Positions 6,538 to 32,941 of a stretch of 64,000 nucleotides of DNA are shown one piece after another. The stretch spans positions 1-64,000 of the IMG/VR virus record IMGVR_UViG_3300045282_000183; one strand, written 5' to 3'. Positions within the stretch are counted from its first letter, which is position 1. Each line of letters begins with the position of its first letter. Made by a program: the position numbers and the translations under genes. This DNA is from a virus. Below the pieces are notes generated by a model. That model was not told the DNA's origin and did not search any database. It saw only the letters and a program-made list of their open reading frames with translations.

Positions 6538-6820
6538 CTAACGGATACTCTGTTGGATCGAACTGCCTCGCCGGGGCCGCGCGTACCACCGTCACGCTCT
6601 CCTCGAACCTCGACATGAAGTAGTCACGGGCCTGCCGATAGTCGTTGCGCGGCAGGCGCGCGATGAGCGTCGCGAGCGTCCACGCGATCGCATCCAGTAT
6701 GTTGTGCGTGGTTTGTCGATCGGCCGCAGCGCCGACGTGACGCTGATAGCGAGCGATCGGCGTCGCGATCGCATCCGACAATCTCTTGACATGGATCAGG
6801 TTGAGATCCTTGCCCGCCAT
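6530..6820 (-). CDS. Hypothetical protein
   Basis: ATG 6820 is preferred because an SD (agggagc) sits just upstream in the gap after the helicase stop; a GTG at 6841 would add 7 residues and overlap the helicase by 13 nt. The 96-residue product is helical and has no recognised motif (LARLPRNDYRQARDYF). It is co-transcribed with the SNF2-type helicase. Confidence 0.6.
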   Translation of the reverse strand: MAGKDLNLIHVKRLSDAIATPIARYQRHVGAAADRQTTHNILDAIAWTLATLIARLPRNDYRQARDYFMSRFEESVTVVRAAPARQFDPTEYPLDE

Positions 6821-6828
6821 AGTGCTCC

Positions 6829-8313
6829 CTATATCAGCCACTCTCGTGCCTCCTCTCGTGTCATGGTTGTCGCGGTGGTTATCTTCTTGCGAAGGTTCTT
6901 GATGATCTTGTCGTCCACGGTGCCGGGTGTTCGCATGTCCACGTAGGTCACGCGATTGGTCTGCCCCTTGCGGTGGTTGCGATCCTCACTGTTCGCGCGC
7001 TGCTCAAGGTCGTCAGTGTTGCCGTAGTAGATGGTCTGGTCCGCGACGTTCCACGTGTTGCCGCGCCCACCCGCCGCCTGAGTGGAGACCATGAACCGGC
7101 ACTCCGGGTCGCCGAGAAATCTTCGCTCGTCCTCGCCGCGCGTGCTGTTGTTCGCGCCGTGGAACTGCGCCGTGCAGCCCGCACCGAACTCCTCCTCCAG
7201 CGCGGCCACGATGCGTTTCAGTGGCGTGTGGAAAGGCACCCAGATGATGGTCTTGCCGCGATGCAGACCAAGGACCTCTATGAGTTCCTTGGGTCTATTG
7301 CACGGTATCTCGTGCGTCCGGCCATGCTCATCCACCACGAAGCCGAGGTTGATCTGGTGCAGTCGCATGACCAGCGTCATGACGTGCTGGGTCGACACGA
7401 ACTCGCCGGTGCCGAGCTGCACCGAGGCGTTGTCGCGGAGCTCCCGGTAGAGCCTGCGCTGCTCCGGGGTGTGCTCCACGTCCCACATGACGTACCGCTT
7501 CGGCTCAAGATCGAGACAATCGGACTTCAGCACGCGATAGCTGTACGGCGCGATGCGATCGGCGAGCTCGTCCTGGTTCTTGTATCCCACGATCACGTCG
7601 AAGCGTCGCCCTCCCGTCTCCATGCGCCGCGTCACGCAGTACTCCCACTCGAACGAATGCCACGACTTGCAACCCACGATGCGCCAGTCCAGGAACTGGA
7701 ACTGCGCGAATATGTCCGCCGGTCCCTTCGGCGTGAGCAGCCCGGTCGCGATGCGCCGGACCACGGCCTCCTCCCCCACTGATCGTATGAATTTTGTGCG
7801 CTGCGCCTTGCGGCTCTTGATGGTCGTGCTCTCGTCCACGGCCACGTAAGCCAAACGCTGCGACACAAACTCCCGCACAAGCTCCTGCGCCTTCTCGACG
7901 CCTGATAGAGCCTCCACGTTCACGAACAGCGCGCGGGGGCGGTCGCTCACGCGCATGAAACGCTCCAGTCGTTTCAGCCGCTCCTTCCCGCCGCCGCTCC
8001 GCCAGCCCGCGATCTCCATGCGATCCACGAAGGCCGGGTCCATCTGCGCGTTGATCTCGCTCTGCTGGATATCGCTCTTGTCCTCGTACCAGTTGCGTAT
8101 GGATCCGGCGGGCGCGATCACCAGAAGGTCCTGCGGCCCCCCGCTGCACGCCATCTCTCCCCACTCGTCGAGTATCGTGCCGGACTTGCCGGTTCCGTAG
8201 TCCATCAAGAACGCGAATACGTCCTCGGGCGCAGGGTCACTCGGGGCGCTGGCGGCGGCCTTCCGGGCGGCGATCTGGTGCGTCATCGGCGCGCGTCTTG
8301 GCTTGTATCTCAC
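6829..8313 (-). CDS. SNF2-type DEAD/DEAH helicase
   Basis: Start GTG 8313 is chosen for the SD acaggagaag; upstream codons have no support. The 494-residue product carries a Walker A GTGKS (about 40-44), a motif II variant VDES (about 159-162), and a helicase C-terminal half ending in the SNF2 signature RNHRKGQ (motif VI, arginine finger). Phage SNF2-like helicases of this size act in replication, recombination or restart. It is the first gene of the short leftward operon transcribed away from the 8.4-kb control region, facing away from the primase and polymerase genes. Confidence 0.88.
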   Translation of the reverse strand: MRYKPRRAPMTHQIAARKAAASAPSDPAPEDVFAFLMDYGTGKSGTILDEWGEMACSGGPQDLLVIAPAGSIRNWYEDKSDIQQSEINAQMDPAFVDRMEIAGWRSGGGKERLKRLERFMRVSDRPRALFVNVEALSGVEKAQELVREFVSQRLAYVAVDESTTIKSRKAQRTKFIRSVGEEAVVRRIATGLLTPKGPADIFAQFQFLDWRIVGCKSWHSFEWEYCVTRRMETGGRRFDVIVGYKNQDELADRIAPYSYRVLKSDCLDLEPKRYVMWDVEHTPEQRRLYRELRDNASVQLGTGEFVSTQHVMTLVMRLHQINLGFVVDEHGRTHEIPCNRPKELIEVLGLHRGKTIIWVPFHTPLKRIVAALEEEFGAGCTAQFHGANNSTRGEDERRFLGDPECRFMVSTQAAGGRGNTWNVADQTIYYGNTDDLEQRANSEDRNHRKGQTNRVTYVDMRTPGTVDDKIIKNLRKKITTATTMTREEAREWLI

Positions 8314-10341: not shown

Positions 10342-11928
10342 ATGCCGTCTGCCAACGACAACGCGCGCAGGATGCTGGAGCTCTTTCCAGGTAACGAGAC
10401 TCATCACGGAACGCACGGCGAGCCAGACCTGGACATGATCGGCGGCGTCAAGTGGGAGATCAAGCGCACGGCGCGTCAGGTGAAGGGACCGGCGACGCTG
10501 GAGCTCTGGGAGAAGCATCTCGAGGGCACGCGCCCGCTCGGCGTGGTGCCGATCATGGGTGACGCGCTGTGCGCGTGGGGCAGCATCGACATAGACGACT
10601 ACGACGTGGTGTCCGCCGACGTCATCCGGAAGATCGAGAGCGCGAAGCTGCCGCTGCTGCCGTGTCGCAGCAAGTCCGGCGGCCTGCATCTGTTCATGTT
10701 CACCAGCAAGCCCGTCACCGCCACGCTCATGCGCACGACGCTCAGCGACATAGCCGCGTCGATCGGGTACGCGGGCTGCGAGATATTCCCGAAGCAGACC
10801 CGGTTGCTCGTCGAGAAGGGTGATCAGGGCAACTGGATGGTCATGCCGTACTTCGGCGGGACGTATGACGGCAAGCTGCGCGAGCAGGTCGGCATCAAGC
10901 GGACCGGTGCGGAGATGCTCGTCGGGGAGTTTCTCTCGGCCGCCGAGAAGATGCGCGTGTCTCCGGAGGACATCGCCAAGGTTCGCGCCCCGAACACGAA
11001 GAAGCCACGAAAGGAGCGCCCCCCGTTCAGCGACGGACCTCCCTGTCTCGTTCACCTGACGTCGAGAGCCGGGGGGATACCGCAGGGTGGGCAGAACAAC
11101 ACGCTGTTCCACATGGGAGTGTACTTTCGCAGGGCCGACCCCGAGAACTGGAAGCGTCGTCTCGAGGAGGCGAACCAGAAGTGGTTCACGCCGCCGTACC
11201 CGTCCGACAAGTTGTCACTACTGATGAAGTCGCTCGACAAGAAGGACTATCAGTACAAGTGTAAGGACCAGCCGATGGTATCGCACTGCGACGCGATGCA
11301 GTGTCGCACGCGCAAGTTCGGCGTGGGAGCGGCCGGGACGTATCCGGAGATCACGAGCATATCGAAGCTGAACTCTGAGCCGCCGATATGGTTCGTGGAC
11401 GTGGAGGGTGCGCGCATCTCGATGAGTACCGAGGAGCTCCAGACCTACGTCAAATTCCATAGACTGTGCATGGAGCACGTGCACAAGTCGTTCGCGACGA
11501 TATCACAGGCGGCGTGGTTCGGCGTGCTGAACGAGGTTATGGCGCGCGGCGTGAGGGACATGGACACGTCCGAGGACGTGAAGCCCGGGGCGCAGTTCCT
11601 GGAGCTACTGCGGCAGTTCCTAACGGACCGAGGGCAGGGCAGGAACAAGGAGGACGTCGCCACGGGCAGGCCGTTCCTAGATGAGGACGAGAAACTGTAC
11701 TATTTCCAGCTCGCGGCGCTCAGGAAGTTTCTCGACCGCGAGGGCATGAAGGATCTCGCGAAGCACAGCGGCAGGATCACGACGATGATAAAGGAACTCG
11801 GCGGGAACAATCATCAGTTCAATCTGAAGGGTGTAGGGAACCGCTTCGTGTGGTGGATACCATTCGATGTTATCGGCTCGAACCGCCCAATGCTCGAGGG
11901 GCCGAAGGCCGAGGAGGGTGAGCTGTGA
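10342..11928 (+). CDS. Archaeo-eukaryotic-type primase (AEP, primase-polymerase)
   Basis: A 528-residue product. Residues ~1-190 carry the AEP catalytic pattern: acidic pair in SIDIDDYD (about 80-86), the His motif SGGLHLF (about 113-119), and a third acidic region in GCEIFPK. A C-terminal helical part contains a possible zinc cluster (SHCDAMQCRTR) and a PriCT-like region. AEP primases synthesise replication primers and some also polymerise DNA. No Walker A was seen, so helicase activity would come from another gene. SD acaggaatactgg precedes the ATG. Confidence 0.78.
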   Translation: MPSANDNARRMLELFPGNETHHGTHGEPDLDMIGGVKWEIKRTARQVKGPATLELWEKHLEGTRPLGVVPIMGDALCAWGSIDIDDYDVVSADVIRKIESAKLPLLPCRSKSGGLHLFMFTSKPVTATLMRTTLSDIAASIGYAGCEIFPKQTRLLVEKGDQGNWMVMPYFGGTYDGKLREQVGIKRTGAEMLVGEFLSAAEKMRVSPEDIAKVRAPNTKKPRKERPPFSDGPPCLVHLTSRAGGIPQGGQNNTLFHMGVYFRRADPENWKRRLEEANQKWFTPPYPSDKLSLLMKSLDKKDYQYKCKDQPMVSHCDAMQCRTRKFGVGAAGTYPEITSISKLNSEPPIWFVDVEGARISMSTEELQTYVKFHRLCMEHVHKSFATISQAAWFGVLNEVMARGVRDMDTSEDVKPGAQFLELLRQFLTDRGQGRNKEDVATGRPFLDEDEKLYYFQLAALRKFLDREGMKDLAKHSGRITTMIKELGGNNHQFNLKGVGNRFVWWIPFDVIGSNRPMLEGPKAEEGEL

Positions 11929-12290
11929 GTAGTATCTACGACCGCAAGACACAGGTACTCCGGGTTGAGTGCGACAATCCGGAGTGTCTGGTGAACTACG
12001 AGACTGAGCCGGCCGAATTCAAGCAGGGCTGGCGTGAGGCAAGAACGATGGGGTGGGTTTATCACCCGACCTACGAGAACGGCGTGTCTCGTGCTGGTCA
12101 CCTGTGTCCACAGCACGCCCGGGAGAACGATCATGCGCGTAAGTTTCGAGGACAAGACGCAGACGCCTTCGAGCAGGCGATCAGGAACGCTCGTGCAGTG
12201 CATCCAGGTGATGGACGTGCCCAAGCCGCGCCCGATCGGGGAGCGGGTCGAGCAGGAGGTCGTCCCAAACATCTGGGGCGTCGTCGCTGA
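11925..12290 (+). CDS. Zinc-finger-like small protein; 3' half may be out of frame
   Basis: GTG 11925 overlaps the primase stop. Residues 1-62 look genuine: ECDNPECLVNYE and HLCPQHAR form a C..C..C..H metal-binding pattern. From about residue 63 the sequence becomes Arg/Gly/Ala-rich (RAGGRPKHLGRRR), typical of an off-frame read, and overlaps the next gene by 158 nt, unlike the 1-17 nt overlaps elsewhere. A single indel near 12120-12140 would end the protein at a TAA near 12138. Confidence 0.5.
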   Translation: MSSIYDRKTQVLRVECDNPECLVNYETEPAEFKQGWREARTMGWVYHPTYENGVSRAGHLCPQHARENDHARKFRGQDADAFEQAIRNARAVHPGDGRAQAAPDRGAGRAGGRPKHLGRRR

Positions 12291-12369
12291 CGACAAGACC
12301 GGCGCGCTGGTCGCGATGCCGATCTACCTCATCACGGCGAAAATCTTGCCGGGTCAACAGGAGAAGTGA
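12133..12369 (+). CDS. Hypothetical protein, 78 residues
   Basis: ATG 12133 has an SD-like gggaga 8 nt upstream. The product (MRVSFEDKTQTPSS..., ending VAMPIYLITAKILPG) looks like a small beta protein. It is followed after one base by the Nudix gene. Its overlap with the preceding frame argues that one of the two is shortened in reality; this one has the more natural composition. Confidence 0.55.
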   Translation: MRVSFEDKTQTPSSRRSGTLVQCIQVMDVPKPRPIGERVEQEVVPNIWGVVADDKTGALVAMPIYLITAKILPGQQEK

Positions 12370-12370
12370 C

Positions 12371-12841
12371 ATGACGAACGACGTCAGGAACAAGCGCATG
12401 GTCGTGGGCTTCCTCTTCGACGAGGACGGCAAGGTGGCCCTCGTCGAGAAGACACACCCGGACTGGCAGCGCGGACTGCTGAACGGCATCGGCGGCGTGA
12501 TGGAGCTCGGCGAGACGCCGCCGGACGCCATGCGTCGCGAGTTCGTCGAGGAGACCGGGGTCACCGGGATCTCCTGGAAGCACTTCGCCACGGAGATCGA
12601 GCCGTTCGGGGCCTACGTCTACTTCTACACGGCGCACGGCAGCGCGAACCTTCCGGAGAAGAACGACGCGGGCGAGCTGCTTCGGTGGGTCGATCCGGTG
12701 GACATCTACAGCCACATGCGCGAGGAGCGGGCGCTGGGCAATCTTCACTGGCTCCTGCCGCTGGCGCAGGACCCGCGCCCGCTCCAGGAGCCGGTGGTCG
12801 TGCACGTCAGGGGCGACATCAGGGAGACGCCGACATGGTGA
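12371..12841 (+). CDS. Nudix hydrolase
   Basis: A 156-residue protein with a full Nudix box: GGVMELGETPPDAMRREFVEE continues to TGV, matching GX5EX7REUXEEXGU, about residues 42-64. Nudix enzymes cleave nucleoside diphosphate-X compounds with Mg2+. SD acaggagaag precedes the ATG. Clustered with a HAD hydrolase and near a base-modification island, it may sanitise or adjust the dNTP pool (for example dTTP or a modified dUTP), but the substrate cannot be read from sequence. It overlaps the next gene by 7 nt. Confidence 0.9.
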   Translation: MTNDVRNKRMVVGFLFDEDGKVALVEKTHPDWQRGLLNGIGGVMELGETPPDAMRREFVEETGVTGISWKHFATEIEPFGAYVYFYTAHGSANLPEKNDAGELLRWVDPVDIYSHMREERALGNLHWLLPLAQDPRPLQEPVVVHVRGDIRETPTW

Positions 12842-13386
12842 AGGACAGATTTGATAAAGCTGAGGACGCTCAGAATTTCTACGATCCGCGCGAGGCTGAC
12901 GACTATGCTGAAAAACTGCGCAACGCGGCGAAGGGCTGGATCGGCGTGGACCTGGATGGCACGCTGTTCCACTACGACAAGTGGGTCGGCTGGAACGTGT
13001 TCGGCGAACCGATCGCGCCGATGGTCGAGCGCGTGCGGAAGTGGGTCTCGGAGGGCATCGAGGTTCGCATCGTGACGGCGCGCGTCGGCATTCCGGTCTG
13101 GGGTGGATACACCGACGCGCCGCGCGTGTCCCACGTGCTCAAGCACCAGTGCCGCGTGACCGGTGACATGTTCAGCGACGCCTCGATGATACGCGCGATC
13201 CAGGACCATCTCGAACGGCACGGTCTTCCGCGCCTGAAGGTCCAGTGCTACAAGGACGTCGACATGATCGAGCTCTGGGACGACCGCGCCGTGCAGGTCG
13301 TGCCGAACACCGGACGCACGCTGGCCGAGGAGCACGCGGCCGAGCTGAGCGCGCTCCAGGGCAAGGCGCAGGGGGTGTCGTCATGA
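12835..13386 (+). CDS. HAD-superfamily phosphohydrolase
   Basis: ATG 12835 overlaps the Nudix stop. The 183-residue product has HAD motif I GVDLDGTLFH (nucleophile Asp about residue 43), motif II-like IVTAR, and motif IV-like ELWDDRAVQ near the C-terminus; a Lys in CYKDVD may be motif III. Such small phage HADs resemble 5'-nucleotidases or the phosphatase half of polynucleotide kinase. Adjacent Nudix gene suggests nucleotide metabolism. Substrate unknown. Confidence 0.82.
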   Translation: MVKDRFDKAEDAQNFYDPREADDYAEKLRNAAKGWIGVDLDGTLFHYDKWVGWNVFGEPIAPMVERVRKWVSEGIEVRIVTARVGIPVWGGYTDAPRVSHVLKHQCRVTGDMFSDASMIRAIQDHLERHGLPRLKVQCYKDVDMIELWDDRAVQVVPNTGRTLAEEHAAELSALQGKAQGVSS

Positions 13387-16530: not shown

Positions 16531-16905
16531 ATGAGACTGACAAGGACATTGCTCATCGCCACCGCGCTGCTCGTCGCCGGACCCGTCGTCGCAGTCGAGC
16601 TGGACAAGAAGATCACGAACCTCGACGGCACGGCGATCGTCGACGACAAGGGCAAGGAGATGGATCTCACGATCCGGACCGTGATCATCAACGCCTTGAT
16701 GTCACCGCGCGCGGACAAGCAGGACGAGACCGGCGTGGACAAGGTGAAGCGCGCCGAGCTGGCGCGGCGCGTGCTCCAGGACAAGGACGGTTCCTACAAG
16801 TACACGGCCGAGGAGATCGCGCTCATGAAGGAATTGATCAACAAGAACTATCCGTCGCCTCTCGTGGTGGATCAGGCGTGGCGCGCACTGGAGAGCAACA
16901 AGTGA
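16531..16905 (+). CDS. Conserved phage protein with hydrophobic N-terminus
   Basis: The 124-residue product begins with a signal-peptide-like segment (LLIATALLVAGPVVA, residues 7-21) followed by a domain known from many phages and prophages as a small cytoplasmic protein (NLDGTAIVDDKGKEM, LVVDQAWRALE). The export signal in front of that domain is unusual. Function of the family is unknown. Stop overlaps the next GTG. Confidence 0.6.
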   Translation: MRLTRTLLIATALLVAGPVVAVELDKKITNLDGTAIVDDKGKEMDLTIRTVIINALMSPRADKQDETGVDKVKRAELARRVLQDKDGSYKYTAEEIALMKELINKNYPSPLVVDQAWRALESNK

Positions 16906-17819
16906 AGAACGCCGCCAAGTTCTACGCCTACGCGCGGGAGAGATACAACATATTTCTCTTGCGCGAGAAGGGTGTCCCGCCGCCTTGGACGAAGGACCAG
17001 ATCCTTCGCGCAGGACGTTTCTGCAATGTTTTTCGTGAAGATGACAAGACGACGCGGTGGTTCCGGCAGCACGTGCGCGAGCGGTACATGAACAAGGACG
17101 AGGTTCTGCTCGCGACCGTTGTATTCCGCATGTTCAATCGGATCACGACCGGCGAGGCTATCTTCAACCAGATGATGTTGCCGTCGAGTCGTTTCAAGAA
17201 GAATGACATGTGTGCATTCGACATCTTTGCAGCCACGGGCGACCCGGAGATCTTGCGTTCGGCCGTGCTGGCGCTCATGCCATCAGGTCCGTATTGTACG
17301 GGGGCATATATCATCAGCAGTCCACCCGGCTACACTAAGCTGGAGGGAGTGCTGGAGGTCTTGGCTCGCTTCTGTCAGAACTCCGGCTGGCAGGAATGGC
17401 TGCATACGGCTGGAGGGCCGCGCGCCAACGAGTGCACATTGGAGGCCGCGCACGACTGGCTCCGGGAGCAGGAATATTTCGGCAACTTCCACGCCTACGA
17501 GATTGTGACGGACCTGCGTCACACGCCGCTGCTCGATCAGGCCCCGGACATCATGACTTGGGCCAGCCCGGGTCCTGGAGCACGGCGGGGGGTGAACAGG
17601 ATATGGGGTCTGCCGCACAAGGACAAGACACTTGCAAGGCCCCAGTTAATCGAGAAGATGCGAGAGTTGCTGTCGTTGTCAAGAGATGCCAGAATGTGGC
17701 CTAGTGAGTGGCCTGCCATGGAACTCAGAGACATCGAGCATCTAACTTGCGAGTGGGACAAATATTCCAGAGTGAAACTTGGTCAGGGCAAGCTGAAGGG
17801 GAAATTTGACGGTGGCTAG
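16902..17819 (+). CDS. 5hmU-DNA-kinase helical domain / alpha-glutamyl-putrescinyl-thymine pyrophosphorylase-like protein
   Basis: GTG 16902 overlaps the preceding stop. The 305-residue product matches the all-helical family described from hypermodified-thymine phages and related bacterial loci: ERYNIFLLREKG, PPWTKDQIL, FCNVFREDDKTTRW, then TGAYIISSPPGYTK, FGNFHAYEIVTDLR and ASPGPGARRGVNRIWG. Members act on 5-hydroxymethyluracil in DNA, either as part of the kinase that phosphorylates it or in the later group-transfer step. Neighbours (P-loop kinase, TS-like enzyme, UDG-fold protein, glycosyltransferase-like protein) support this. The exact step is not determinable here. Confidence 0.75.
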   Translation: MKNAAKFYAYARERYNIFLLREKGVPPPWTKDQILRAGRFCNVFREDDKTTRWFRQHVRERYMNKDEVLLATVVFRMFNRITTGEAIFNQMMLPSSRFKKNDMCAFDIFAATGDPEILRSAVLALMPSGPYCTGAYIISSPPGYTKLEGVLEVLARFCQNSGWQEWLHTAGGPRANECTLEAAHDWLREQEYFGNFHAYEIVTDLRHTPLLDQAPDIMTWASPGPGARRGVNRIWGLPHKDKTLARPQLIEKMRELLSLSRDARMWPSEWPAMELRDIEHLTCEWDKYSRVKLGQGKLKGKFDGG

Positions 17820-18420
17820 TGGTGTGCACATGATACGGAACACGGTGAACGGCAAGATGTACGTTGGCTCCGCCAAGCGTCTTGCCAATCGCTGGTCTGT
17901 GCACGTCGCTACGTTGAAGAAGGGTCGGCATCACTCGAAGAAGTTGCAGCGGGCATGGAACAAATACGGTGCACGAGCATTCGTGTTCGAAGTACTGATC
18001 ACCTGCGATATTAAGCACGCAGTCAAGATCGAACAGGACTTTATGAACAAGCTGGATGTCGTGAAGAACGGATACAATGTCCATCCAAATGCGCGCTCGG
18101 CCTTGGGACGAAAACACAATAAGATGACACGAGCCAGAATGTCTGCGAGTGCCGTGCTCGTGGCGTCGAGTGTGTCTGAGAGAAAACGAAGATCACAGCG
18201 CGCGAAGGCGCAGCACGTGGCGGGCAAGTTTGGTCAAAAGACCTGGACGCGCCCAGCGAGATACAATCCAATCAGCGCTGTGGCTGGCGCGAAGGCGTTG
18301 AAATCTTGCACGCGCGACAAGCGATGGGTCGCTAAGAGAGCCAAGAACGCTGTCGCTGCACGCCGACATTTCTACAATGTTCACACAAGACAAGTGGAAC
18401 TGATGAGGAAATACAGATGA
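17806..18420 (+). CDS. GIY-YIG homing endonuclease with NUMOD3-like motifs
   Basis: A 204-residue, strongly basic protein. The GIY-YIG domain is at residues 6-70: GVHMI in place of GIYxI, then MYVGSA (YIG), R27-type Arg in LANRWSVH, and LQRAWNKYGARAFVFEVL. A NUMOD3-like DNA-binding repeat (ALGRKHNKMTRARMSASA) and a long basic tail follow. It is a freestanding mobile endonuclease between the HMUDK-like gene and the glycosyltransferase-like gene, and is more AT-rich than its neighbours. The Tyr-to-His change in the GIY motif may affect cleavage. Confidence 0.85.
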   Translation: MTVASGVHMIRNTVNGKMYVGSAKRLANRWSVHVATLKKGRHHSKKLQRAWNKYGARAFVFEVLITCDIKHAVKIEQDFMNKLDVVKNGYNVHPNARSALGRKHNKMTRARMSASAVLVASSVSERKRRSQRAKAQHVAGKFGQKTWTRPARYNPISAVAGAKALKSCTRDKRWVAKRAKNAVAARRHFYNVHTRQVELMRKYR

Positions 18421-18638
18421 GCAAGCGCATTACGTGGTACGTGACAGTCAAGAAGATCGAGGAACGCTTCGTGCGGCGCTGGGTGAAGGGTGTCGGCAAC
18501 GAGGCCGTGTTCTCCAAGGACTCCGAGGGATGGTACGTCGTGTTCGCAGAGTGGGCCGCCGCAGCCCACGTCGGCAAGGACAAGCCCGACTTCGAGCCGG
18601 GTGATTGTGTCAAGATGACAATGGAGAAGGTGTCATGA
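18417..18638 (+). CDS. Hypothetical protein
   Basis: A 73-residue product in ATGA overlap with the homing endonuclease and in ATGA overlap with the next gene. Sequence (ITWYVTVKKIEERFVRRW, PDFEPGDCVKMTME) suggests a small beta-rich fold. No family recognised. Confidence 0.55.
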   Translation: MSKRITWYVTVKKIEERFVRRWVKGVGNEAVFSKDSEGWYVVFAEWAAAAHVGKDKPDFEPGDCVKMTMEKVS

Positions 18639-19603
18639 GGAACGCCAAGATGTTCAGTTTCGTGCGCGTCAGCGAGAACAGCATGGTCGCGAGCGTTCGC
18701 ATCGCGCGCTGGCTGTCGAACTACCTGAGCGTCGAGCTCGTCGACGACGAGCGTATAGCGGACAAGGTGCTCGACACCCTGATCATCATCAACGGAGCCT
18801 ACGGCTTCTGCAAGTATCTCGCTCCTCTGGGCGAGGCCATCTACGACGCGCGACGCGTGATCTGGGCGCAGAACGACTACACCATCATCCCGCCGAAGGA
18901 CGAGGGCGACGCCGAGTCTCCGTTCCGGAAGGCGTTCGTGCGCCGGAAGGAGATGGGCAAGCTGCCGACCATCTTCTGGTCCACCTGCGAGAAGTGGGCG
19001 TCGCGCAAGGGCTCGCACTACGTGAACTGGAACATGCTGACGTTCGACGAGAAGTACGACCAGAAGAAGGTCGAGCATCGACGCAGTCTCGTCCCGCACG
19101 ACACGCTTCTGTACTACGGCAGCTTCCGGGACGGAAGCGGCAAGTCCAGTCGCGTGTCGTTGTTCGATCGGTACTTCCGGAACCCCGAAGTCCAGACCGT
19201 GATCAGCAGCCCGTCGCCGAAGTTCGCCGAGCGATACCCGAACTGTCGATGCGTCGGCGTGATCGAGGACCCGTTCTACGCGGGGCTCGCCATGCACGGT
19301 CTCGGCCTCTACATCGAGGACCGCAAGTCCAGCGAGGAGTTCCACTCGCCCGCGAACCGCTTCTACGAGATGCTGTCGGCCGGGCTGCCGATGGTGTTCC
19401 AGCCGGAGGCTGGCTCCATGCTGCGACGCGCGGGCTTCGACCCGAGCCACTACGAGGTTCACAACGCGCGCGACGTCGTGAAGTTTATGGAGCGCCGCGA
19501 GACCATCGGCGAGGCGCAGCGTCGCGCGTGGATCGAGAGCAAGACCGGATTCCGCAACCGGCTGATCAGTCAGGTCGCCGAGGCGCTGGAGGCGCTGCCG
19601 TGA
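18635..19603 (+). CDS. GT-B-fold glycosyltransferase-like protein
   Basis: ATG 18635 is chosen for the 4-nt overlap. The 322-residue protein has a Rossmann-like N-terminal half (LDTLIIINGAYGFCK) and a C-terminal nucleotide-sugar-binding region typical of GT-B enzymes: SPANRFYEMLSAGLPMVF, then GSMLRRAGFD and a helical tail. In other phages GT-B enzymes glucosylate hydroxymethylated bases. Set among hydroxymethyluracil genes, a DNA glycosyltransferase is the most natural reading, though donor sugar and acceptor are unknown and a glycan role cannot be excluded. Confidence 0.6.
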   Translation: MRNAKMFSFVRVSENSMVASVRIARWLSNYLSVELVDDERIADKVLDTLIIINGAYGFCKYLAPLGEAIYDARRVIWAQNDYTIIPPKDEGDAESPFRKAFVRRKEMGKLPTIFWSTCEKWASRKGSHYVNWNMLTFDEKYDQKKVEHRRSLVPHDTLLYYGSFRDGSGKSSRVSLFDRYFRNPEVQTVISSPSPKFAERYPNCRCVGVIEDPFYAGLAMHGLGLYIEDRKSSEEFHSPANRFYEMLSAGLPMVFQPEAGSMLRRAGFDPSHYEVHNARDVVKFMERRETIGEAQRRAWIESKTGFRNRLISQVAEALEALP

Positions 19604-19845
19604 CGCAGTACGTCGACAAGTGTTTGCTGTGTAAGGGCGACTCCGGTGTCGTCGACAGTAGACCTGTCGGTGAGACCGTGCGCCGAAGAAGAAAGTGCTT
19701 GTCATGTTGGGAGCGCTGGACAATATTCGAAGTGAGACGTGAGGATAGAAAAGACGTGAGAGTAGATGCTGTCCGAATAAATCGTCTGAGACTAGCTGCC
19801 GAGTTTCTAACCGAGATAGCCACCAACTTGGAGCAGAAAACATGA
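19600..19845 (+). CDS. NrdR-like zinc-ribbon protein
   Basis: GTG 19600 overlaps the previous stop. The 81-residue product matches the zinc-ribbon half of the bacterial repressor NrdR: CLLCKGDSGVVDSRPV, RRRRKCLSCWERWTIFEV (two CxxC pairs and the VDSRP motif), followed by a short helical tail. The ATP-cone of NrdR (~150 residues) is missing. It may bind NrdR-type operators to influence host ribonucleotide reductase, or simply be a DNA-binding adaptor. A second zinc ribbon of this type is at 38565-38810. Confidence 0.75.
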   Translation: MTQYVDKCLLCKGDSGVVDSRPVGETVRRRRKCLSCWERWTIFEVRREDRKDVRVDAVRINRLRLAAEFLTEIATNLEQKT

Positions 19846-20390
19846 TCATCTCCCTGCGAGGCACGTCCGGCAGCGGCAAGTCCACGCTCGTGCGCAAGAT
19901 CACGGCGCTCTACGAGGACGGAGGCACGCCCTTCTTCGTGGACGGCAGGAAGAAGGCGTACTACACGACGCACAACCGGGGCGGCGGGCGCGGGACGGCG
20001 CTGGTCGTGCCCGGGCACTACGACATTGCGAACGGTGGCATCGACACGCTGAAGTCACTGGACGAGGCCTATGAGATCGCGAGTCGCGCCGACAATGACG
20101 GCCACGACGTGCTCATGGAGGGCAAGAACATGAGCGACGGGCCACCGCACGCCTTGACGCTGTGCAGGGACGGGCGCGACGTGCGCGTGGTGCACATACT
20201 GGAGCCGGTCTGGAAGTGCTATCACGCGGTGCGCAAGCGCGGGCATCACATACAGATGGAGACCATCGTACGGACACACGAGAAGTGCCTGCGCGACGTT
20301 CAGACTTTTCGCACGCTCGGTCTCGAGCACGTGCGACAGGAGGGGAGAGAGAAGTGCCTCGAGATCGTGAAGTGGTGGCTGGCGCTGTGA
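19842..20390 (+). CDS. P-loop kinase, candidate 5-hydroxymethyluracil DNA kinase
   Basis: A 182-residue kinase with Walker A GTSGSGKST (residues 7-15), a Walker B-like VLMEGKN segment and a LID-like Arg/Lys region (KCYHAVRKRGHH). Size and layout fit nucleotide or base kinases of the AAA-like kinase group seen in thymine-hypermodifying phages, where the P-loop kinase phosphorylates hmU in DNA. The genomic link to the HMUDK-helical-domain gene at 16902 supports this; T4 Pnk-like or dNMP kinase activity is the alternative. Confidence 0.65.
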   Translation: MIISLRGTSGSGKSTLVRKITALYEDGGTPFFVDGRKKAYYTTHNRGGGRGTALVVPGHYDIANGGIDTLKSLDEAYEIASRADNDGHDVLMEGKNMSDGPPHALTLCRDGRDVRVVHILEPVWKCYHAVRKRGHHIQMETIVRTHEKCLRDVQTFRTLGLEHVRQEGREKCLEIVKWWLAL

Positions 20391-20971
20391 CAGTCGAGAA
20401 ACCCATGCTGATCGGCATGTGCAACCCCGTGTCCCAAGAGCCGGGACACGAGCTCTACCCGCATCCGGACGGCTGCACCGGCCATCGGCTGTGGAAGATG
20501 CTCCAGGAGCGCCTGCCGCACGTGTCGCGGCGACACTACCTCGAGACGTTCGAGCGGCGCAATCTCGTGTGCGGCGTCGCGTGGAACCGCGCGCTTGGCC
20601 GGGCCGAGGCCGATCGCATCTACGCCGAGCTCTGGGGCAGCAGACGCACCGTCGTTCTCCTCGGCGAGGACGTGCGCCGCGCGTTCGGGCACCCCCGGCT
20701 TCTCGTCGAGCCGCAGGTGATCGGGGGTTGCACGTGGCGGCAGCTTCCGCATCCCAGTGGTCGCAATCTCTGGTACAACAGCCCGAACCATCGCAAGATG
20801 GCGGGCACACTGATGGAGGAGCTCTATGTGGCGTATCACCGTGATGATGATCATGTTCGTGCTGATCGGGATCGCTCTGCTGCGGCTGGAGCCGCTGCCG
20901 ATCGTGATCAGCGGCGACGACGCGGTGCCGCTGCTCGCCGAGCGAAGGACGACGGCGTCGAGTATGAGTAG
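20387..20971 (+). CDS. Uracil-DNA-glycosylase-fold protein
   Basis: GTG 20387 overlaps the kinase stop. Residues ~8-150 follow the UDG fold: MLIGMCNPVSQ (motif A region), GCTGHRLWKML, FERRNLV, RTVVLLGEDVRRAFG, and LPHPSGRNLWYN (motif B HPSG). The usual catalytic Asp/Asn of motif A is not obvious, so it may be a catalytically changed member. In base-modification loci such proteins could remove or process modified bases. The last ~45 residues are Arg/Asp/Ala-rich and overlap the next gene by 146 nt, so the true end may be earlier. Confidence 0.65.
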   Translation: MTVEKPMLIGMCNPVSQEPGHELYPHPDGCTGHRLWKMLQERLPHVSRRHYLETFERRNLVCGVAWNRALGRAEADRIYAELWGSRRTVVLLGEDVRRAFGHPRLLVEPQVIGGCTWRQLPHPSGRNLWYNSPNHRKMAGTLMEELYVAYHRDDDHVRADRDRSAAAGAAADRDQRRRRGAAARRAKDDGVEYE

Positions 20972-21104
20972 TGGCGCACCGATCTGCGCGCAGATGGTCG
21001 TGACGGGTGGTGGCGGCGCGTCCGGGACGACGGTGTTGGTGCCGTGCGCGACGAGTGCGACCAGCGGAACTTGGGTAACGACAACTAGAAAGGGAGGAGA
21101 CTGA
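20826..21104 (+). CDS. Small membrane-anchored or secreted protein
   Basis: ATG 20826 has an SD (ggagg) 7 nt upstream. The 92-residue product starts with a hydrophobic helix (VMMIMFVLIGIALLRLEPL) followed by a Ser/Thr/Gly-rich region with two Cys. It overlaps the 3' end of the UDG-fold gene in another frame, which is longer than usual in this genome. Function unknown. Confidence 0.5.
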   Translation: MWRITVMMIMFVLIGIALLRLEPLPIVISGDDAVPLLAERRTTASSMSSGAPICAQMVVTGGGGASGTTVLVPCATSATSGTWVTTTRKGGD

Positions 21105-21105
21105 C

Positions 21106-22215
21106 ATGTACGTACTCATCGAGCGAAACGTGTGCGACTTGCTGCCGAGAGGTCTCGGGTTCATGCGCGACAAGCCTCGCGAGAAGACCCGGAACGGCGA
21201 TGCGCTGGTGGCTCCGGCTCCGGTGATGTCGGTCTACCAGCGACCGACCGAGCGCGTGCTGCGCAGTCCGCAGCGCGACGCCAATCCATTCTTCCACCTG
21301 ATCGAGAGCCTGTGGATGCTGGCCGGTCGTGACGACGTGGCGACGCTGAACCACTACGTCGGTGACTTCGGCGGGCGCTACGCCGAGGAGGACGGCCGGG
21401 TCCACGGCGCGTATGGTCATCGGTGGCGCGTCGGGCTGGGGTTTGATCAGCTCGACGTGATCGTGAGACGTCTGCTCGAGAACCCGAGTGACCGGCAGTG
21501 TGTTCTGCAGATGTGGGACGCGCGAGCCGACACGTTGCATCAGGACGGCTTCGACGACCTGCTTGGTGACTGGAAGGACCGCCCGTGCAACACGCACGTC
21601 TACTTCCGGGTGCGGACCGTGCCGATTGATCCTATCATGTACGGCGATGGTGTCGTTCTGCCGCGCTACGAGTACGTGCTCGACATGACCGTGTGCTGTC
21701 GCAGCAACGACGTGGTCTTGGGTGCGTACGGTGCGAACGCCGTGCACTTCAGCATGCTCCAGGAGTACGTGGCCGGGCGAGTGCGGACGCAGGTCGGCAC
21801 GATGTATCAGCTCTCGAACAACTATCACGTCTACGTCGATCAGCTCGCGAAGATGGAAAAGCGTCTGTTCGACGGCAAGCCGACGCAGAACCTCGCGAAT
21901 GAAATGCAGCCCTACGGCGTGGGTGTCGGCTGGGAGGCCGAGCCGATCGGCGAGCACTGGGGCGCGTGGGACGATGATCTGCACGCATTCATGGAGTGTC
22001 ACGACGTGCTGTGGAGCATTCCCGCTCCATCACTCGAAATGAGGGCGGAGGTGAGTAACAGGTGGTTCGCGCAGGTGGCCTGGAAGGTGGCGTTCGCCTA
22101 CTTCTGTCACAAGCACGATCGTCGCGACGAGGCGCTCGCTGTGGCCGGGCAGATCGAGGCCGGCGACTGGCGCGGCGCGTGCGTGGAGTGGCTGCTGCGG
22201 AGGTACGCGCGATGA
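21106..22215 (+). CDS. Thymidylate synthase-family enzyme, probable dUMP hydroxymethylase
   Basis: A 369-residue TS-fold enzyme. Seen are IESLWMLAG (conserved Glu, 65-73), RVHGAYGHRWR, SDRQCVLQMWD (phosphate-binding Arg), the nucleophile Cys161 in RPCNTH, CCRSND (197-202) and GAYGANAVHFSML, with Asn211 at the position that selects dUMP over dCMP. It is longer than standard TS (~264). In thymine-modifying phages the TS homologue makes 5-hydroxymethyl-dUMP. TS and hydroxymethylase cannot be separated by eye; the neighbouring kinase and HMUDK-like genes favour hydroxymethylase. SD gggaggag; stop overlaps the HD gene. Confidence 0.85.
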   Translation: MYVLIERNVCDLLPRGLGFMRDKPREKTRNGDALVAPAPVMSVYQRPTERVLRSPQRDANPFFHLIESLWMLAGRDDVATLNHYVGDFGGRYAEEDGRVHGAYGHRWRVGLGFDQLDVIVRRLLENPSDRQCVLQMWDARADTLHQDGFDDLLGDWKDRPCNTHVYFRVRTVPIDPIMYGDGVVLPRYEYVLDMTVCCRSNDVVLGAYGANAVHFSMLQEYVAGRVRTQVGTMYQLSNNYHVYVDQLAKMEKRLFDGKPTQNLANEMQPYGVGVGWEAEPIGEHWGAWDDDLHAFMECHDVLWSIPAPSLEMRAEVSNRWFAQVAWKVAFAYFCHKHDRRDEALAVAGQIEAGDWRGACVEWLLRRYAR

Positions 22216-22784
22216 TCAACCTCTCGGAGGATCCGCGCGCGGCGCTCGAGCTGACGCGCTATCACTCGTGGCGACGACTGCGCGATCAGTCGGTTGGCGA
22301 GCACTCGTGCCAGATCATGAGAATACTTCTCACGGTGTGGCCCGATTGTCCTCGTCGAATGCTCGTGTACGCCGTGACGCACGACATGGGCGAGATGGCC
22401 GGGGACATTCAGTATCCGTACAAGCTGAAGTACCCCGAACTCAAGCCACTCATGGACCGGGTGGAAAAGGACGTGGTCGGTGTCATGCGCGACGGGCTGG
22501 GTGCACCCCCAGCCGTGATGTTATCGAAATATGAGCTTGACGTATTCAAGATCGTGGAATTTGTGGAGATGTTCGAGTATGGTCTCTCTGAACAAGGAAT
22601 GGGAAATCAGTATGCTCGTATCATCTCTTCCCGATGTATATTGGCAGCGTCTGAGTTGATGGGCAGACTGGAACCCGGTGATGCACTCGACATCAGACCG
22701 GCGATAAAGAGGTATGTAGATGCGCGCGCGGAATGGGAAGGGCAAAATCAAAACACTACCGCTTCCGACAAGAAAGAGACTTAG
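22212..22784 (+). CDS. HD-domain phosphohydrolase (5'-deoxynucleotidase-like)
   Basis: ATG 22212 in ATGA overlap with the TS-like gene. The 190-residue protein has the metal-binding HD pattern: RYHSWRRL, GEHSCQIMRIL (His), THDMGEMAGDI (HD pair, about 58-59) and PYKLKYPELK, closely resembling YfbR-type deoxynucleotidases. Directly coupled to the TS-like gene, it may remove dTMP or dTTP so that modified nucleotides are used. Its 3' end is overlapped by the HNH endonuclease gene (65 nt), suggesting that the mobile gene inserted at this end. Confidence 0.82.
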   Translation: MINLSEDPRAALELTRYHSWRRLRDQSVGEHSCQIMRILLTVWPDCPRRMLVYAVTHDMGEMAGDIQYPYKLKYPELKPLMDRVEKDVVGVMRDGLGAPPAVMLSKYELDVFKIVEFVEMFEYGLSEQGMGNQYARIISSRCILAASELMGRLEPGDALDIRPAIKRYVDARAEWEGQNQNTTASDKKET

Positions 22785-23220
22785 AGAACTATTCATCTAC
22801 GACGAGAAGCGTGGTGTTCTCATAAATCGAGTGAGCTACGGCCACAGATTTGCCGGAGCGATCGTGGGAAGGCCAGACAGATGCGGCGCGTTGCAGGCGA
22901 TGGTAGACGGAAAGTTGTACTTCGTGCATCGCCTGATTTGGAAATACGTGAAAGGAAAAGATCCCAAGCACACGATAGATCATAAGAACCGAAAATGTGA
23001 TTTTAACCAGGCTTCTAATCTTCGAGACTTCACGATGCGACAGCAAGGATACAACAGAAAATTAAGTAAAAAGAACAAATCTGGCGTGGCTGGAGTATTC
23101 AAGATGGGAGACGGGAGATGGAGAGTTCGCATCGGAGAAACTGGGTTGGGGAAATACCGTTCCAAGCGTGAAGCAATAAGAGTCCGAAGACAAGCAGAAC
23201 AAATGGAGACACAGCGATGA
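22720..23220 (+). CDS. HNH homing endonuclease with AP2-like C-terminus
   Basis: A 166-residue, very basic protein. The HNH core is VHRLIWKYVKGKDPKHTIDHKN at residues ~69-90 (with IDH as the central H), followed by SNLRDFTMRQQGYN. The C-terminal KSGVAGVFKMGDGRWRVRI is an AP2-like DNA-binding domain. The gene is clearly more AT-rich than its surroundings, a sign of transfer, and lies over the 3' end of the HD phosphohydrolase gene. Confidence 0.88.
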   Translation: MRARNGKGKIKTLPLPTRKRLRELFIYDEKRGVLINRVSYGHRFAGAIVGRPDRCGALQAMVDGKLYFVHRLIWKYVKGKDPKHTIDHKNRKCDFNQASNLRDFTMRQQGYNRKLSKKNKSGVAGVFKMGDGRWRVRIGETGLGKYRSKREAIRVRRQAEQMETQR

Positions 23221-24419
23221 CTGAGCACAACATGAACCACCTGAACTACATTCGCGTCGTGGTCGAGGCGGACCTCGCCTACGTCGACCGCAAGGACCGT
23301 CAGTACGGCGGGAGCTGGAAGCGCCGCGGCGGTGTCGGCGCGTTCATGATGCTGGCGCGCAAGTGGGACCGACTGGAGCAGTTCATGGCGAAGTTTCACT
23401 ACGATATTTTTGGAGTGATCGATGCGGAGATCGCGCGCGAGAAGAGCGAAGCAGAAAGTCGCACGCCAGCGGGCTACACGCCAGACTACGACGTTGGTAA
23501 GGACGGCACCGTGCTTGCCGAGGTACGCGACCTTCGCCGTTATCTCATGCTCGTGGAGGCCGAGATGATGGCGCGCGGGGTTGTGCCCGGCGACCGCGTC
23601 TTCGGGGTCGCCACTGCTGGAGGCAAGAAGGGCGAGCCCGTCGACGTGCTGCGCGAAGGCACGACGGAGATCCGCAAGTCCTTCGTCGGTGGCGACGGTC
23701 AGGTCATCCGCGAGCTGGATCCGGTATGGGTGATGCCGGACCCCGGCGAGCTTCACTCGACCAGAAACAAGCCCGAGGCCGCCGTGGCGCGACGGCTCGA
23801 GCGCAACGGCGAGGTGACCGTGGACTACGCGACCGGCGAGTCGCAGATTGTGAAACACGGCAGGCTCTCGCGACGCGCGACCGTGATCCGGGAGCTCGAC
23901 GTGAACGGCCCGGTGATCATGAACGGCATGGTCCACGAACACGGCCGATCGCCTCGCGTCGCGACCGCCGAGGACCTCGCGCTGGCCGAGAGAACCTTCA
24001 CGACGGACCGGCGCGTGCCGCGCTACGAGCCGGACACGCCCGACGAGGACAACATCGCCTGTCGGGACGCGCCCTTCGTCGTACCGGAGAGCTACTGGCG
24101 ACGCAAGAACATCGAGCGGGACGCCTTCGATAAATTCTGGACGCTGCGAGCACCGGACGTGCACGTGCTGGACGCGCACGTGGTCAGCGACAGCATTCCG
24201 GGTCTGCTGCGCAACTACTACCACTCGCGGGGCGGCGAGTGGATCATCGATATCGACCGGGTGCCAGCGTCAGTTCGCGGACACTTTCCGGCGCTGCGCG
24301 GCGAGGTCAACATGAAGGAGCACGAGGAACTGCCGGAGTGGCAGCGCGTGCTCTACACGTGGGACGCCAACGGCACGAAGTTCCGGCTGGCGCAGCTTGG
24401 TTGGGGAGGTGGACTATGA
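23217..24419 (+). CDS. Conserved phage protein of unknown function
   Basis: A 400-residue product. The N-terminal ~70 residues (DRKDRQYGGSWKRRGG, FMMLARKWDRLE) belong to a motif seen in other phage proteins of unknown role. The rest is mixed and charged with no recognised catalytic signature; a Cys in NIACRDAPF and several His occur. ATGA overlaps on both sides. Placed between the modification island and DNA polymerase, it may be part of replication or modification. Confidence 0.65.
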   Translation: MTEHNMNHLNYIRVVVEADLAYVDRKDRQYGGSWKRRGGVGAFMMLARKWDRLEQFMAKFHYDIFGVIDAEIAREKSEAESRTPAGYTPDYDVGKDGTVLAEVRDLRRYLMLVEAEMMARGVVPGDRVFGVATAGGKKGEPVDVLREGTTEIRKSFVGGDGQVIRELDPVWVMPDPGELHSTRNKPEAAVARRLERNGEVTVDYATGESQIVKHGRLSRRATVIRELDVNGPVIMNGMVHEHGRSPRVATAEDLALAERTFTTDRRVPRYEPDTPDEDNIACRDAPFVVPESYWRRKNIERDAFDKFWTLRAPDVHVLDAHVVSDSIPGLLRNYYHSRGGEWIIDIDRVPASVRGHFPALRGEVNMKEHEELPEWQRVLYTWDANGTKFRLAQLGWGGGL

Positions 24420-31754: not shown

Positions 31755-31951
31755 TGGCGCGCATCGTGACAGTGTATCTCAAGGGACCGTGGTCTCGTCC
31801 AGGACATCACTCTGGTGATGACTGGGATCGTGGCATCGTGCACGTTCAGACGAAGGATGGTGTCACATTGGCCGACAACGAGTACGGTGCCAACGTGCGC
31901 ACGTATCCGGTCGGCAACATAGCACGCATAGAGGAGACAGGGCATTGGTGA
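31754..31951 (+). CDS. Small hypothetical protein
   Basis: ATG 31754 in ATGA overlap. The 65-residue product (RIVTVYLKGPWSRPGHH, VQTKDGVTLADNEYG) looks beta-rich. It overlaps the methyltransferase start by 4 nt. Confidence 0.55.
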   Translation: MARIVTVYLKGPWSRPGHHSGDDWDRGIVHVQTKDGVTLADNEYGANVRTYPVGNIARIEETGHW

Positions 31952-32544
31952 GTATCAGGCAGACGAGCACCAAGTACCGGGGGCGCAAGGCCGAGACGTA
32001 CGACGCGATGCGCCAGAAGCAGGTGCGCTGGAAGATCGAGAACGAGACCGTGGAGCGCATGCTCCGCGAGATAAGGCCGCACAGCGTGCTGGACTGCCCG
32101 ATTGGCACGGGGCGGTTTCTGCGGCTGTATGCCGATCTGAGCGTGCGCGAGGTGATAGGCGTCGACAGTAGTGACGAGATGCTGCGGCTGGCACGGCGCA
32201 AGGTGCCGCGCTCCATGAAGCAGCACGCCAAGGTGAGGCTGGAGGTCGGCGACGCGCGGAAGCACGACTGTGTCGATCAGCGCGTGCACTGTGTCGTGTG
32301 CGTGCGCTTTCTCGACCTGATCGAGGAGGAGGCTATGCACGCGGTCATGCAGGAGATGATGCGTGTCGCTGACAAGTTGATCGTGCTGACCATTCGCTTC
32401 GGTCCGAAGTACGTGCCGAAGTCGAACACTGCGACGCACGACAGCAAGAAATTCTTGTCGCTTGTACGACACTCCAAGTGGATCGTCGTAGAACGGGTGC
32501 CCGTGCTCAACGCGGGCTGGGAGATCGTGAGGCTGGGAAGATGA
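31948..32544 (+). CDS. Class I SAM-dependent methyltransferase
   Basis: GTG 31948 overlaps the preceding stop. The 198-residue product has SAM-binding motif I VLDCPIGTGRFL (about 48-59), an acidic end of strand 2 in VIGVDSSDEML, motif III-like VEVGDAR, and motif IV region VHCVVCVRFLD. No NPPY or PC catalytic motif of DNA methylases is present, so it is more like small-molecule, nucleoside or protein methyltransferases. A role in finishing a modified base is possible but unproven. Confidence 0.75.
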   Translation: MSIRQTSTKYRGRKAETYDAMRQKQVRWKIENETVERMLREIRPHSVLDCPIGTGRFLRLYADLSVREVIGVDSSDEMLRLARRKVPRSMKQHAKVRLEVGDARKHDCVDQRVHCVVCVRFLDLIEEEAMHAVMQEMMRVADKLIVLTIRFGPKYVPKSNTATHDSKKFLSLVRHSKWIVVERVPVLNAGWEIVRLGR

Positions 32545-32714: not shown

Positions 32715-32941
32715 GCAAGAGACCAATGACACTGTGCGTGTCGTCGCCGTTCGAGATCACGATGACACAGCGCGCGCAGAACGACACGTGGCGCGCATTC
32801 TTGCAGGGCGGCACGAACCACTCGGCGCAGGCCGGGACGCTGCCCTATATTATCCGGCGATGCGAGCAGGAAGGCGTGCCTTTCATGTTGAAGGCGCATC
32901 CGGGTCTCGGCTACTGGATCGAGCCGCAGGAGAAGAAGTGA
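32711..32941 (+). CDS. Small hypothetical protein
   Basis: GTG 32711 overlaps the preceding stop. The 76-residue product (SSPFEITMTQRAQNDTW, RRCEQEGVPFMLKAHPG) is not recognised. It overlaps the glycosylase start by one base. Confidence 0.55.
   Translation: MSKRPMTLCVSSPFEITMTQRAQNDTWRAFLQGGTNHSAQAGTLPYIIRRCEQEGVPFMLKAHPGLGYWIEPQEKK

Follow-up and report, generated by a model that had tools for sequence, protein, structure and literature searches.

A phage gene cassette predicted to attach a sugar to hydroxymethyluracil in place of the amino-acid step of known thymidine hypermodification systems

Introduction

Phages of the M6/YuA type hypermodify thymidine by way of 5-hydroxymethyl-dUMP, and known hmU-derived hypermodifications add amino acids or amines. 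Which final base should then be expected when the core genes of such a pathway are found without the genes of the amino-acid step, but with a glycosyltransferase beside them? The question is raised by positions 16902-22784 of a 64,000-nucleotide stretch of viral DNA (the window; positions 1 to 64,000 of the 69,180-base IMG/VR record IMGVR_UViG_3300045282_000183). An earlier note, made from the sequence alone, listed in this region an HMUDK-helical-domain/thymine-pyrophosphorylase-like protein, a GT-B glycosyltransferase-like protein, an NrdR-type zinc ribbon, a P-loop kinase, a UDG-fold protein, a thymidylate-synthase-family enzyme keeping the dUMP-selecting Asn and an overlapping HD deoxynucleotidase-like gene. 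It saw no PLP enzyme, GNAT or radical SAM protein, and proposed that the final base may be a sugar-bearing hmU made by a route other than those of SP10, ViI or M6. We examined both the gene list and this proposal.

Gene content of the cassette

We find that what the note observed is real: every gene that it named is present as an open frame at or very near the positions it gave, all on the plus strand. The first, at 16902-17819, encodes an HMUDK_hel protein (PF18723, E=5.9e-44; phrog_2396, E=8e-58), a family named '5-hmdU DNA kinase, helical domain' in Pfam, although some annotated relatives are called alpha-glutamyl/putrescinyl thymine pyrophosphorylase clade 1 (aGPT-Pplase1). It is 35-38% identical to the homologues of YuA (gp14), FP1 and Bhz59. 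A PDB match of this protein to Photorhabdus PLL lectins (summed E 5e-8) was rejected as an artefact of the lectin's repeats, since no single stretch of the best match scores below an i-Evalue of 2. Two ORFs follow: one at 17806-18420, not listed in the note, for a GIY-YIG homing endonuclease (PF01541, E=2.6e-8; phrog_314, E=6e-24), a mobile insertion in the cassette rather than a part of the pathway, and a small one of 73 codons at 18417-18638, which is conserved beside hel in a few relatives (HMM hits in L007, L008 and L024; L numbers designate the related viral records and loci compared here).

The GT-B gene (GT hereafter) lies at 18635-19603 and is followed at 19600-19845 by a stand-alone NrdR-type zinc ribbon without ATP cone (PF22811, E=1.2e-10), which is peripheral and not conserved in relatives, no counterpart having been found in related loci. 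The P-loop kinase at 19842-20390 (Walker A GTSGSGKST) belongs to the HMUDK family: it hits phrog_800 (E=1e-11), the same PHROG as YuA gp13, which itself hits PF18748 (E=8e-18), an iterative HMM joins it to M6 gp54, and its alignment (A5) shows the invariant positions. The protein of 20387-20971 has a predicted UDG fold (AlphaFold pLDDT 91.5), with TDG/MUG as best Foldseek hits in the PDB (E=6e-5), and carries motif 1 (GMCNP) and an HPS-type motif 2 (PHPSGRN), with an invariant His122, though motif 1 departs from the canonical forms. Its relatives end about 40 residues earlier. M6 gp48 is a homologue, matching the HMM at E=2.6e-25 and Pfam UDG only weakly (0.002). A direct PDB sequence search with the profile of this protein, and another with that of GT, gave only chance hits.

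The thymidylate-synthase (TS) homologue at 21106-22215 (PF00303, E=5.8e-19; phrog_5131, E=1.7e-84) is 38% identical to YuA gp17 and has Cys161 and Asn211. The latter aligns with the dUMP-selecting Asn of TS and with the Asp of the CMP hydroxymethylase MilA, so that the note's remark on this residue is borne out and the protein is a putative dUMP hydroxymethylase. Its stop is overlapped by the HD gene at 22212-22784, which encodes a 5'-deoxynucleotidase-like protein (phrog_6047, E=3e-18; YfbR-like, E=2e-4), homologous to YuA gp18. Just after the cassette lies an ORF at 22720-23220, also absent from the note's list, which looks HNH/homing-endonuclease-like by reading of the sequence only. The next gene, at 23217-24419, encodes a 400-aa protein whose N-terminal ~120 residues match the T7 gp1.7-like nucleotide kinase that follows the synthase in these cassettes. 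It clusters with YuA gp20, the positional counterpart of Lydia PaL_00007 ('nucleotide kinase gp1.7; T7-like'), is conserved downstream in nearly all relatives, and could be an hmdUMP kinase. Finally, a SAM-dependent methyltransferase (PF13649, E=2e-15) is encoded at a distance, at 31948-32544. Its homologues sit inside the GT cassette in relatives, being 45-56% identical to genes beside GT in L007, L011-L013, L015, L019 and L101-L104, and 42% in the loci L031 and L036, which have the glycosyltransferase TAGT; there are none in ADDT loci. A possible role would be O-methylation of the sugar or base. A scan with this methyltransferase gave no confirmed relative, because the exact-peptide seeds failed.

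The genes that would complete an M6-type system were looked for in the whole 69,180-base record. The amino-acid:DNA transferase ADDT (PF18724) is absent, and tblastn and iterative HMMs gave no hit for the PLP enzyme (PALP), the radical SAM enzyme or Nmad5. The absence of PLP and radical SAM proteins claimed in the note thus holds for the families tested, among which GNAT was not searched on its own.

A predicted glycosyltransferase remotely related to that of T4

What, then, is the GT-B protein? It has no Pfam hit down to E 0.1 and no PHROG or NCBIfam hit. However, its AlphaFold model (pLDDT 92.7) has T4 DNA beta-glucosyltransferase (BGT) with UDP-glucose as best PDB match in a Foldseek search (1j39, E=5.2e-9, TM(query) 0.62), T4 AGT being also found, and comparison with a BGT profile by hhalign agrees (probability 92, E=7e-7). 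Residues D81, Y160, G162, R165, R173, R242 and E245 align with BGT D100, Y186, G188, R191, R195, R269 and E272. Among these D81, R165, R173, R242 and E245 are invariant; in the T4 enzyme Asp100 is catalytic, and Arg191, Arg195, Arg269 and Glu272 bind UDP. Overall identity is only about 13-16%. Since only profile-profile and fold comparison link the two, we consider it a distant relative and not a member of the T4 family.

The family was found in 32 viral contigs, all of which, except one truncated 633 bases upstream, have hel, kinase or TS beside it. No relative was found by a profile scan of one genome each of 84,980 prokaryote species, at the sensitivity used. Hel is present in 22 of 26 whole GT records, three of the other four being cut off within about 1.2 kb of GT, and in 9 of 9 TAGT/GT-B2-only records; the same core recurs in dozens of divergent contigs, so the clustering is not due to chance. 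A scan with the window's hel brought only ADDT-type or armless loci, none with GT. Two cultured E. coli phages, IME392 and EP_H11, also carry the family, with a PIG-L de-N-acetylase, a GT-A-like ORF, the GT, hel, a P-loop kinase, TS and HD in a row.

The glycosyltransferase takes the place of the amino-acid arm. ADDT was found in 0 of 35 records with a cassette glycosyltransferase against 23 of 25 controls, and GT in 0 of 25 ADDT records, with 2 of 2 positive controls. In the TS-selected set, 18 glycosyltransferase and 23 ADDT loci overlap in 0 (hypergeometric P=4e-4, uncorrected for kinship), and there are at least 5 changes of arm on the TS tree; it must be kept in mind that this exclusion rests on related, partly fragmentary contigs. 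In addition, TAGT (PF20691), a DNA glycosyltransferase of GT-A fold which gave no hit in the window's record, occupies the same slot in sister hmU cassettes (L024, L027, L028, L031, L055, L057 and L060) and replaces GT between the sister pairs L007/L028 and L101/L031.

Comparison with known systems

The closest system is the M6/YuA-type thymidine hypermodification (5-NedU) of the Mesyanzhinovviridae, with which the cassette shares homologous TS, HD nucleotidase, HMUDK_hel, HMUDK kinase, UDG-fold gene and a gp1.7-like kinase next to PolA, but it has the GT-B protein instead of ADDT, PALP, radical SAM and Nmad5, and the phage looks like a contractile-tailed myophage. T4 BGT acts on 5hmC and is paired with dCMP hydroxymethylase, whereas the enzyme described here is paired with an hmU pathway. 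Bacillus phage SP-15, which has glucose and phosphoglucuronate on dihydroxypentyluracil, also bears sugar on uracil in its DNA and has a GT-B protein (BFVD rank 26), but its C5 side chain and gene cluster are different (PMC5977210). Yersinia phage YerA41, with a ~1 kDa oligosaccharide-like thymidine substitution (PMC9023294), is a chemical precedent and was checked as a possible chemical proof, but its genome has no detectable homologue of this GT, hel, TS or kinase, only the HD gene matching. Base J (beta-D-glucosyl-hmU) of kinetoplastids could be identical to the product if the sugar is beta-glucose. In kinetoplastids it is made by JBP dioxygenases and a different glucosyltransferase, while here hmU would be pre-replicative, made by a TS homologue.

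Discussion

The interpretation given in the earlier note, a sugar-bearing hmU made by another route, is supported by these results. The explanation that we favour, with a probability of about 0.74, is a thymine-hypermodification cassette whose last step is glycosylation, hmU replacing some of the thymine. In this view the TS homologue makes 5-hydroxymethyl-dUMP, and the HD enzyme, by removing dTMP, and the gp1.7-like kinase shape the pool so that hmdUTP enters the DNA. After replication the BGT-like enzyme, targeted or helped by the HMUDK_hel protein, would transfer a sugar from a nucleotide-sugar to hmU, preferably by direct attack of the 5-CH2OH oxygen with Asp81 as general base, as T4 BGT does on hmC, giving a base-J-like 5-(glycosyloxymethyl)-dU. 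The P-loop kinase probably phosphorylates a share of the hmU, or the attached sugar. What our analysis establishes is the families, the predicted folds, the conserved active-site residues, the conserved neighbourhood and the exclusion with ADDT, whereas every catalytic step, including sugar transfer to DNA, dUMP hydroxymethylation and any glycosylase activity of the UDG-fold protein, as well as the product, the sugar and the linkage, is inferred. T4 BGT itself can glucosylate hmU in single strands or in hmU:G mismatches, but it does not act on hmU:A pairs in duplex DNA (PMC4111573), so the present enzyme would need a different acceptor pocket or help. Moreover, the retained kinase is not needed for direct glycosylation.

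Another possibility, which we consider unlikely, is that the kinase first phosphorylates hmU in DNA and that the glycosyltransferase uses the phosphate as acceptor, giving an hmU-phosphate-sugar comparable to the phosphoglucuronate of SP-15, where a phosphate-linked sugar is carried on dihydroxypentyluracil (PMC5977210). Indeed, the kinase is kept in 17 of 26 GT records and sits beside GT, sometimes directly next to it. However, a phosphate acceptor would not need the general-base Asp of BGT, which is invariant, and four records with GT, hel and TS (L018, L021, L023 and L114) have no recognisable kinase, though a divergent kinase like that of IME392 could be missed; because of these four records we dropped the idea that GT always works with the kinase. 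It is still less likely that the system is essentially M6-like, kinase and hel activating hmU and an unrecognised enzyme adding an amino-acid or amine group, while the GT acts on something else, such as the cell surface or a metabolite. Kinase, hel, UDG, TS and HD are all homologous to M6 genes, but ADDT, PALP, the YuA-type radical SAM and Nmad5 are absent from the record, and the GT family was found only in these cassettes, its closest fold being a DNA glycosyltransferase. That the modified base is cytosine, glycosylated as hmC as in T4, is the least likely of these readings: although the BGT, AGT and TAGT enzymes studied so far act on 5hmC (PMC13216743), the only pyrimidine hydroxymethylase-type gene found in the record keeps the dUMP Asn and groups with M6 gp58, and hel and the kinase belong to the hmU pathway.

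One may go further and suppose, more tentatively and at rather less than even odds, that a BGT-type enzyme glycosylates hmU throughout a phage genome, so that bacterial viruses independently make base J or a close analogue, by means of a modular cassette in which glycosyltransferases (BGT-like or TAGT) and amino-acid transferases are interchangeable effector arms on one hmU core. Related viruses are predicted to use this sugar step where the known systems attach amino acids, so it looks like a second, putative way of disguising viral DNA. If this cassette glycosylates hmU, it gives phages a thymine counterpart of T4's glucosyl-hmC, a likely source of base-J-type DNA and of new DNA glycosyltransferases, and a natural test of what HMUDK_hel does, since hel is found in both arms while the kinase is not always there.

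Genomic setting and gene content of the cassette

The window covers the first 64,000 bases of a 69,180-base IMG/VR virus record with a G+C content of 63%. The record carries a portal gene of the Phage_portal_3 family and, judging from a reading of the sequence alone, a tail-sheath-like gene and a baseplate-J-like gene, so that it probably belongs to a contractile-tailed phage. The portal protein (44804-46798) has a C-terminal domain matching the Pfam InPase (inorganic pyrophosphatase) family, with E=1.3e-27. Two other genes outside the cassette have recognizable domains: 10342-11928 contains an AEP/PrimPol-like primase domain (PF22548, E=2.7e-9) and is possibly the replicative primase of this phage, and 32941-34011 contains a pyrimidine-dimer DNA glycosylase domain (Pyr_excise, E=8e-21) followed by about 280 residues without a family.

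The earlier note had listed a set of genes suggestive of thymine hypermodification, and every gene that it named is indeed present. Profile searches identified 16902-17819 as HMUDK_hel (hereafter hel; PF18723, E=5.9e-44), 19600-19845 as an NrdR-type zinc ribbon, 21106-22215 as a thymidylate-synthase homologue (TS) and 22212-22784 as an HD protein whose gene overlaps the stop of the synthase gene. The product of 19842-20390 belongs to phrog_800, the PHROG of YuA gp13, which is itself the Pfam 5-hmdU DNA kinase HMUDK_HMUD1 (E=8e-18). Members of this kinase family, such as YuA gp13 (6832-7395 of the YuA record) and FP1 gp13 (6805-7371 of the FP1 record), are labelled 'terminase small subunit' in PHROGs and GenBank; this is probably a propagated misannotation. 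For 20387-20971 only an unnamed PHROG was found, but its AlphaFold model (pLDDT 91.5) matches TDG and MUG, and M6 gp48 is a homologue that matches Pfam UDG weakly. No family hit of any kind was obtained for 18635-19603. Finally, two mobile-endonuclease genes interrupt or border the cassette, a GIY-YIG gene at 17806-18420 and, by reading only, an HNH-like gene at 22720-23220.

Comparison with the M6 and YuA cassettes

YuA carries, in this order, ADDT, PALP, radical SAM, HMUDK, hel, Nmad5, TS, HD and PolA, and M6 carries the same genes with the UDG homologue upstream. The phage studied here shares with them hel (35-38% identity), TS (38-39%), HD, the kinase, UDG and PolA. In contrast, searches for ADDT, PALP, the YuA-type radical SAM and Nmad5 found none of them.

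A predicted DNA glycosyltransferase distantly related to T4 BGT

An alignment of 18 relatives of the 18635-19603 protein (GT) gave a confident model (pLDDT 92.7, pTM 0.90). Its best match among all solved structures is T4 DNA beta-glucosyltransferase (BGT) with UDP-glucose (E=5.2e-9), followed by bacterial GT-B enzymes and T4 alpha-glucosyltransferase. A profile built from eight BGT proteins aligns with that of the 18 relatives at a probability of 92 (E=7e-7). In a joint alignment eight columns are invariant, and seven of them are D81, Y160, G162, R165, R173, R242 and E245, which are aligned with T4 BGT D100, Y186, G188, R191, R195, R269 and E272; D100 is the catalytic base of BGT and the Arg/Glu residues hold UDP. 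However, no curated family model reaches the protein, and it is therefore a distant relative rather than a member of the T4 family.

Distribution of GT in viral contigs

The GT family is encoded by 32 viral contigs. In all but one, hel, the kinase or TS lies beside it, the exception (contig L017) being cut 633 bases before the gene. When whole records were searched, hel was found in 22 of 26 GT records; of the four without it, L016, L017 and L104 are cut within about 1.2 kb upstream of GT, but L022 is not. ADDT was found in none of 35 records with a GT, a TAGT or a second GT-B gene, while it was detected in 23 of 25 ADDT records; conversely, the GT profile found nothing in 25 ADDT records, while both positive controls were recovered. 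Among the 75 loci selected by TS similarity only, 18 have a cassette glycosyltransferase, 23 have ADDT and none has both (hypergeometric P=4e-4, not corrected for kinship). On the TS tree the arm, i.e. the glycosyltransferase or ADDT part of the cassette, changes at least five times, so this is not one inherited event.

Other sugar-related enzymes are found in the same slot. Sister loci lacking this GT carry TAGT (PF20691, up to E=2.7e-19), a second GT-B-like gene, an NTP_transf_3 sugar-nucleotidyltransferase-like protein, an APH-like ORF (by reading only), radical-SAM/SPASM proteins and methyltransferases. L007 (with GT) and L028 (with TAGT) are sisters on the TS tree at full support, as are L101 (GT) and L031 (TAGT) with a support of 99. 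Two cassettes, in L024 (7291-10007) and L031 (5505-8698), combine TAGT with an APH-like ORF and an NTP_transf_3 gene, suggesting a phage-made special nucleotide sugar. Within the TS-selected set, SPASM and the methyltransferase occur only in glycosyltransferase loci. The radical-SAM/SPASM protein (10085-11125 in L010, with homologues in L008, L009, L011-L013, L023, L027, L028, L033, L038, L101-L104 and L106) follows or accompanies the glycosyltransferase in most relatives but is missing from the phage studied here; it may tailor the sugar or base further. The SAM methyltransferase of this phage (31948-32544) is 45-56% identical to those beside GT, inside the glycosyltransferase cassettes of related phages, so it may belong to the pathway although it lies about 9 kb downstream of the cassette.

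In a search of 50,697 phage records, only the E. coli phages IME392 and EP_H11 were found to have a GT relative (about 25% identity, E about 1e-9). There it lies between a PIG-L de-N-acetylase plus a GT-A-like ORF on one side and hel, a P-loop kinase, TS and HD on the other. A BCCT choline/betaine-type transporter gene (11814-13196 in IME392) is encoded directly upstream of this cassette in both phages. A full-text search for these two phages showed no paper on their DNA chemistry among the titles listed.

Proposed pathway

What the analysis shows is limited to families, predicted folds, conserved residues, gene neighbourhoods and the exclusion with ADDT; the catalytic steps considered here, the sugar and its linkage are inferred. 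The synthase keeps Cys161 and Asn211, the latter being the residue that is Asp in the CMP hydroxymethylase MilA, so dUMP is the likely substrate and, by relation to M6, hmdUMP the likely product. We propose that the HD protein removes dTMP and that the gp1.7-like domain of 23217-24419 phosphorylates hmdUMP; after replication, GT would glycosylate hmU. Direct attack by the hydroxymethyl oxygen is preferred, because the general-base Asp is invariant and because four records with GT, hel and TS (L018, L021, L023 and L114) show no kinase, although a divergent kinase like that of IME392 could escape this search. T4 BGT makes base J on hmU in single strands and in hmU:G mismatches but not on hmU:A (PMC4111573), so the acceptor pocket must differ. 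As for the kinase, it may serve a second modification, the sugar, or a phosphate-linked route as in SP-15. The presence of hel in both arms and in kinase-free loci suggests, by inference only, that it acts in targeting hmU-DNA rather than only as a kinase domain. The UDG-fold protein may remove uracil or unfinished hmU, or it may flip bases.

Sugar-bearing thymine derivatives are already known chemically in SP-15 (PMC5977210) and probably in YerA41 (PMC9023294). But YerA41 shares none of the GT, hel, TS or kinase genes, and the cluster of SP-15 is described differently. A 2026 survey of phage DNA glucosyltransferases (PMC13216743) treats cytosine only, in the parts that we consulted, and notes solitary TAGTs as unexplained; prior notice of such genes in the main papers on hmU cassettes cannot be excluded. 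On this basis, what sets the present cassette and its relatives apart from the known systems is the combination of an hmU core with a BGT-like arm.
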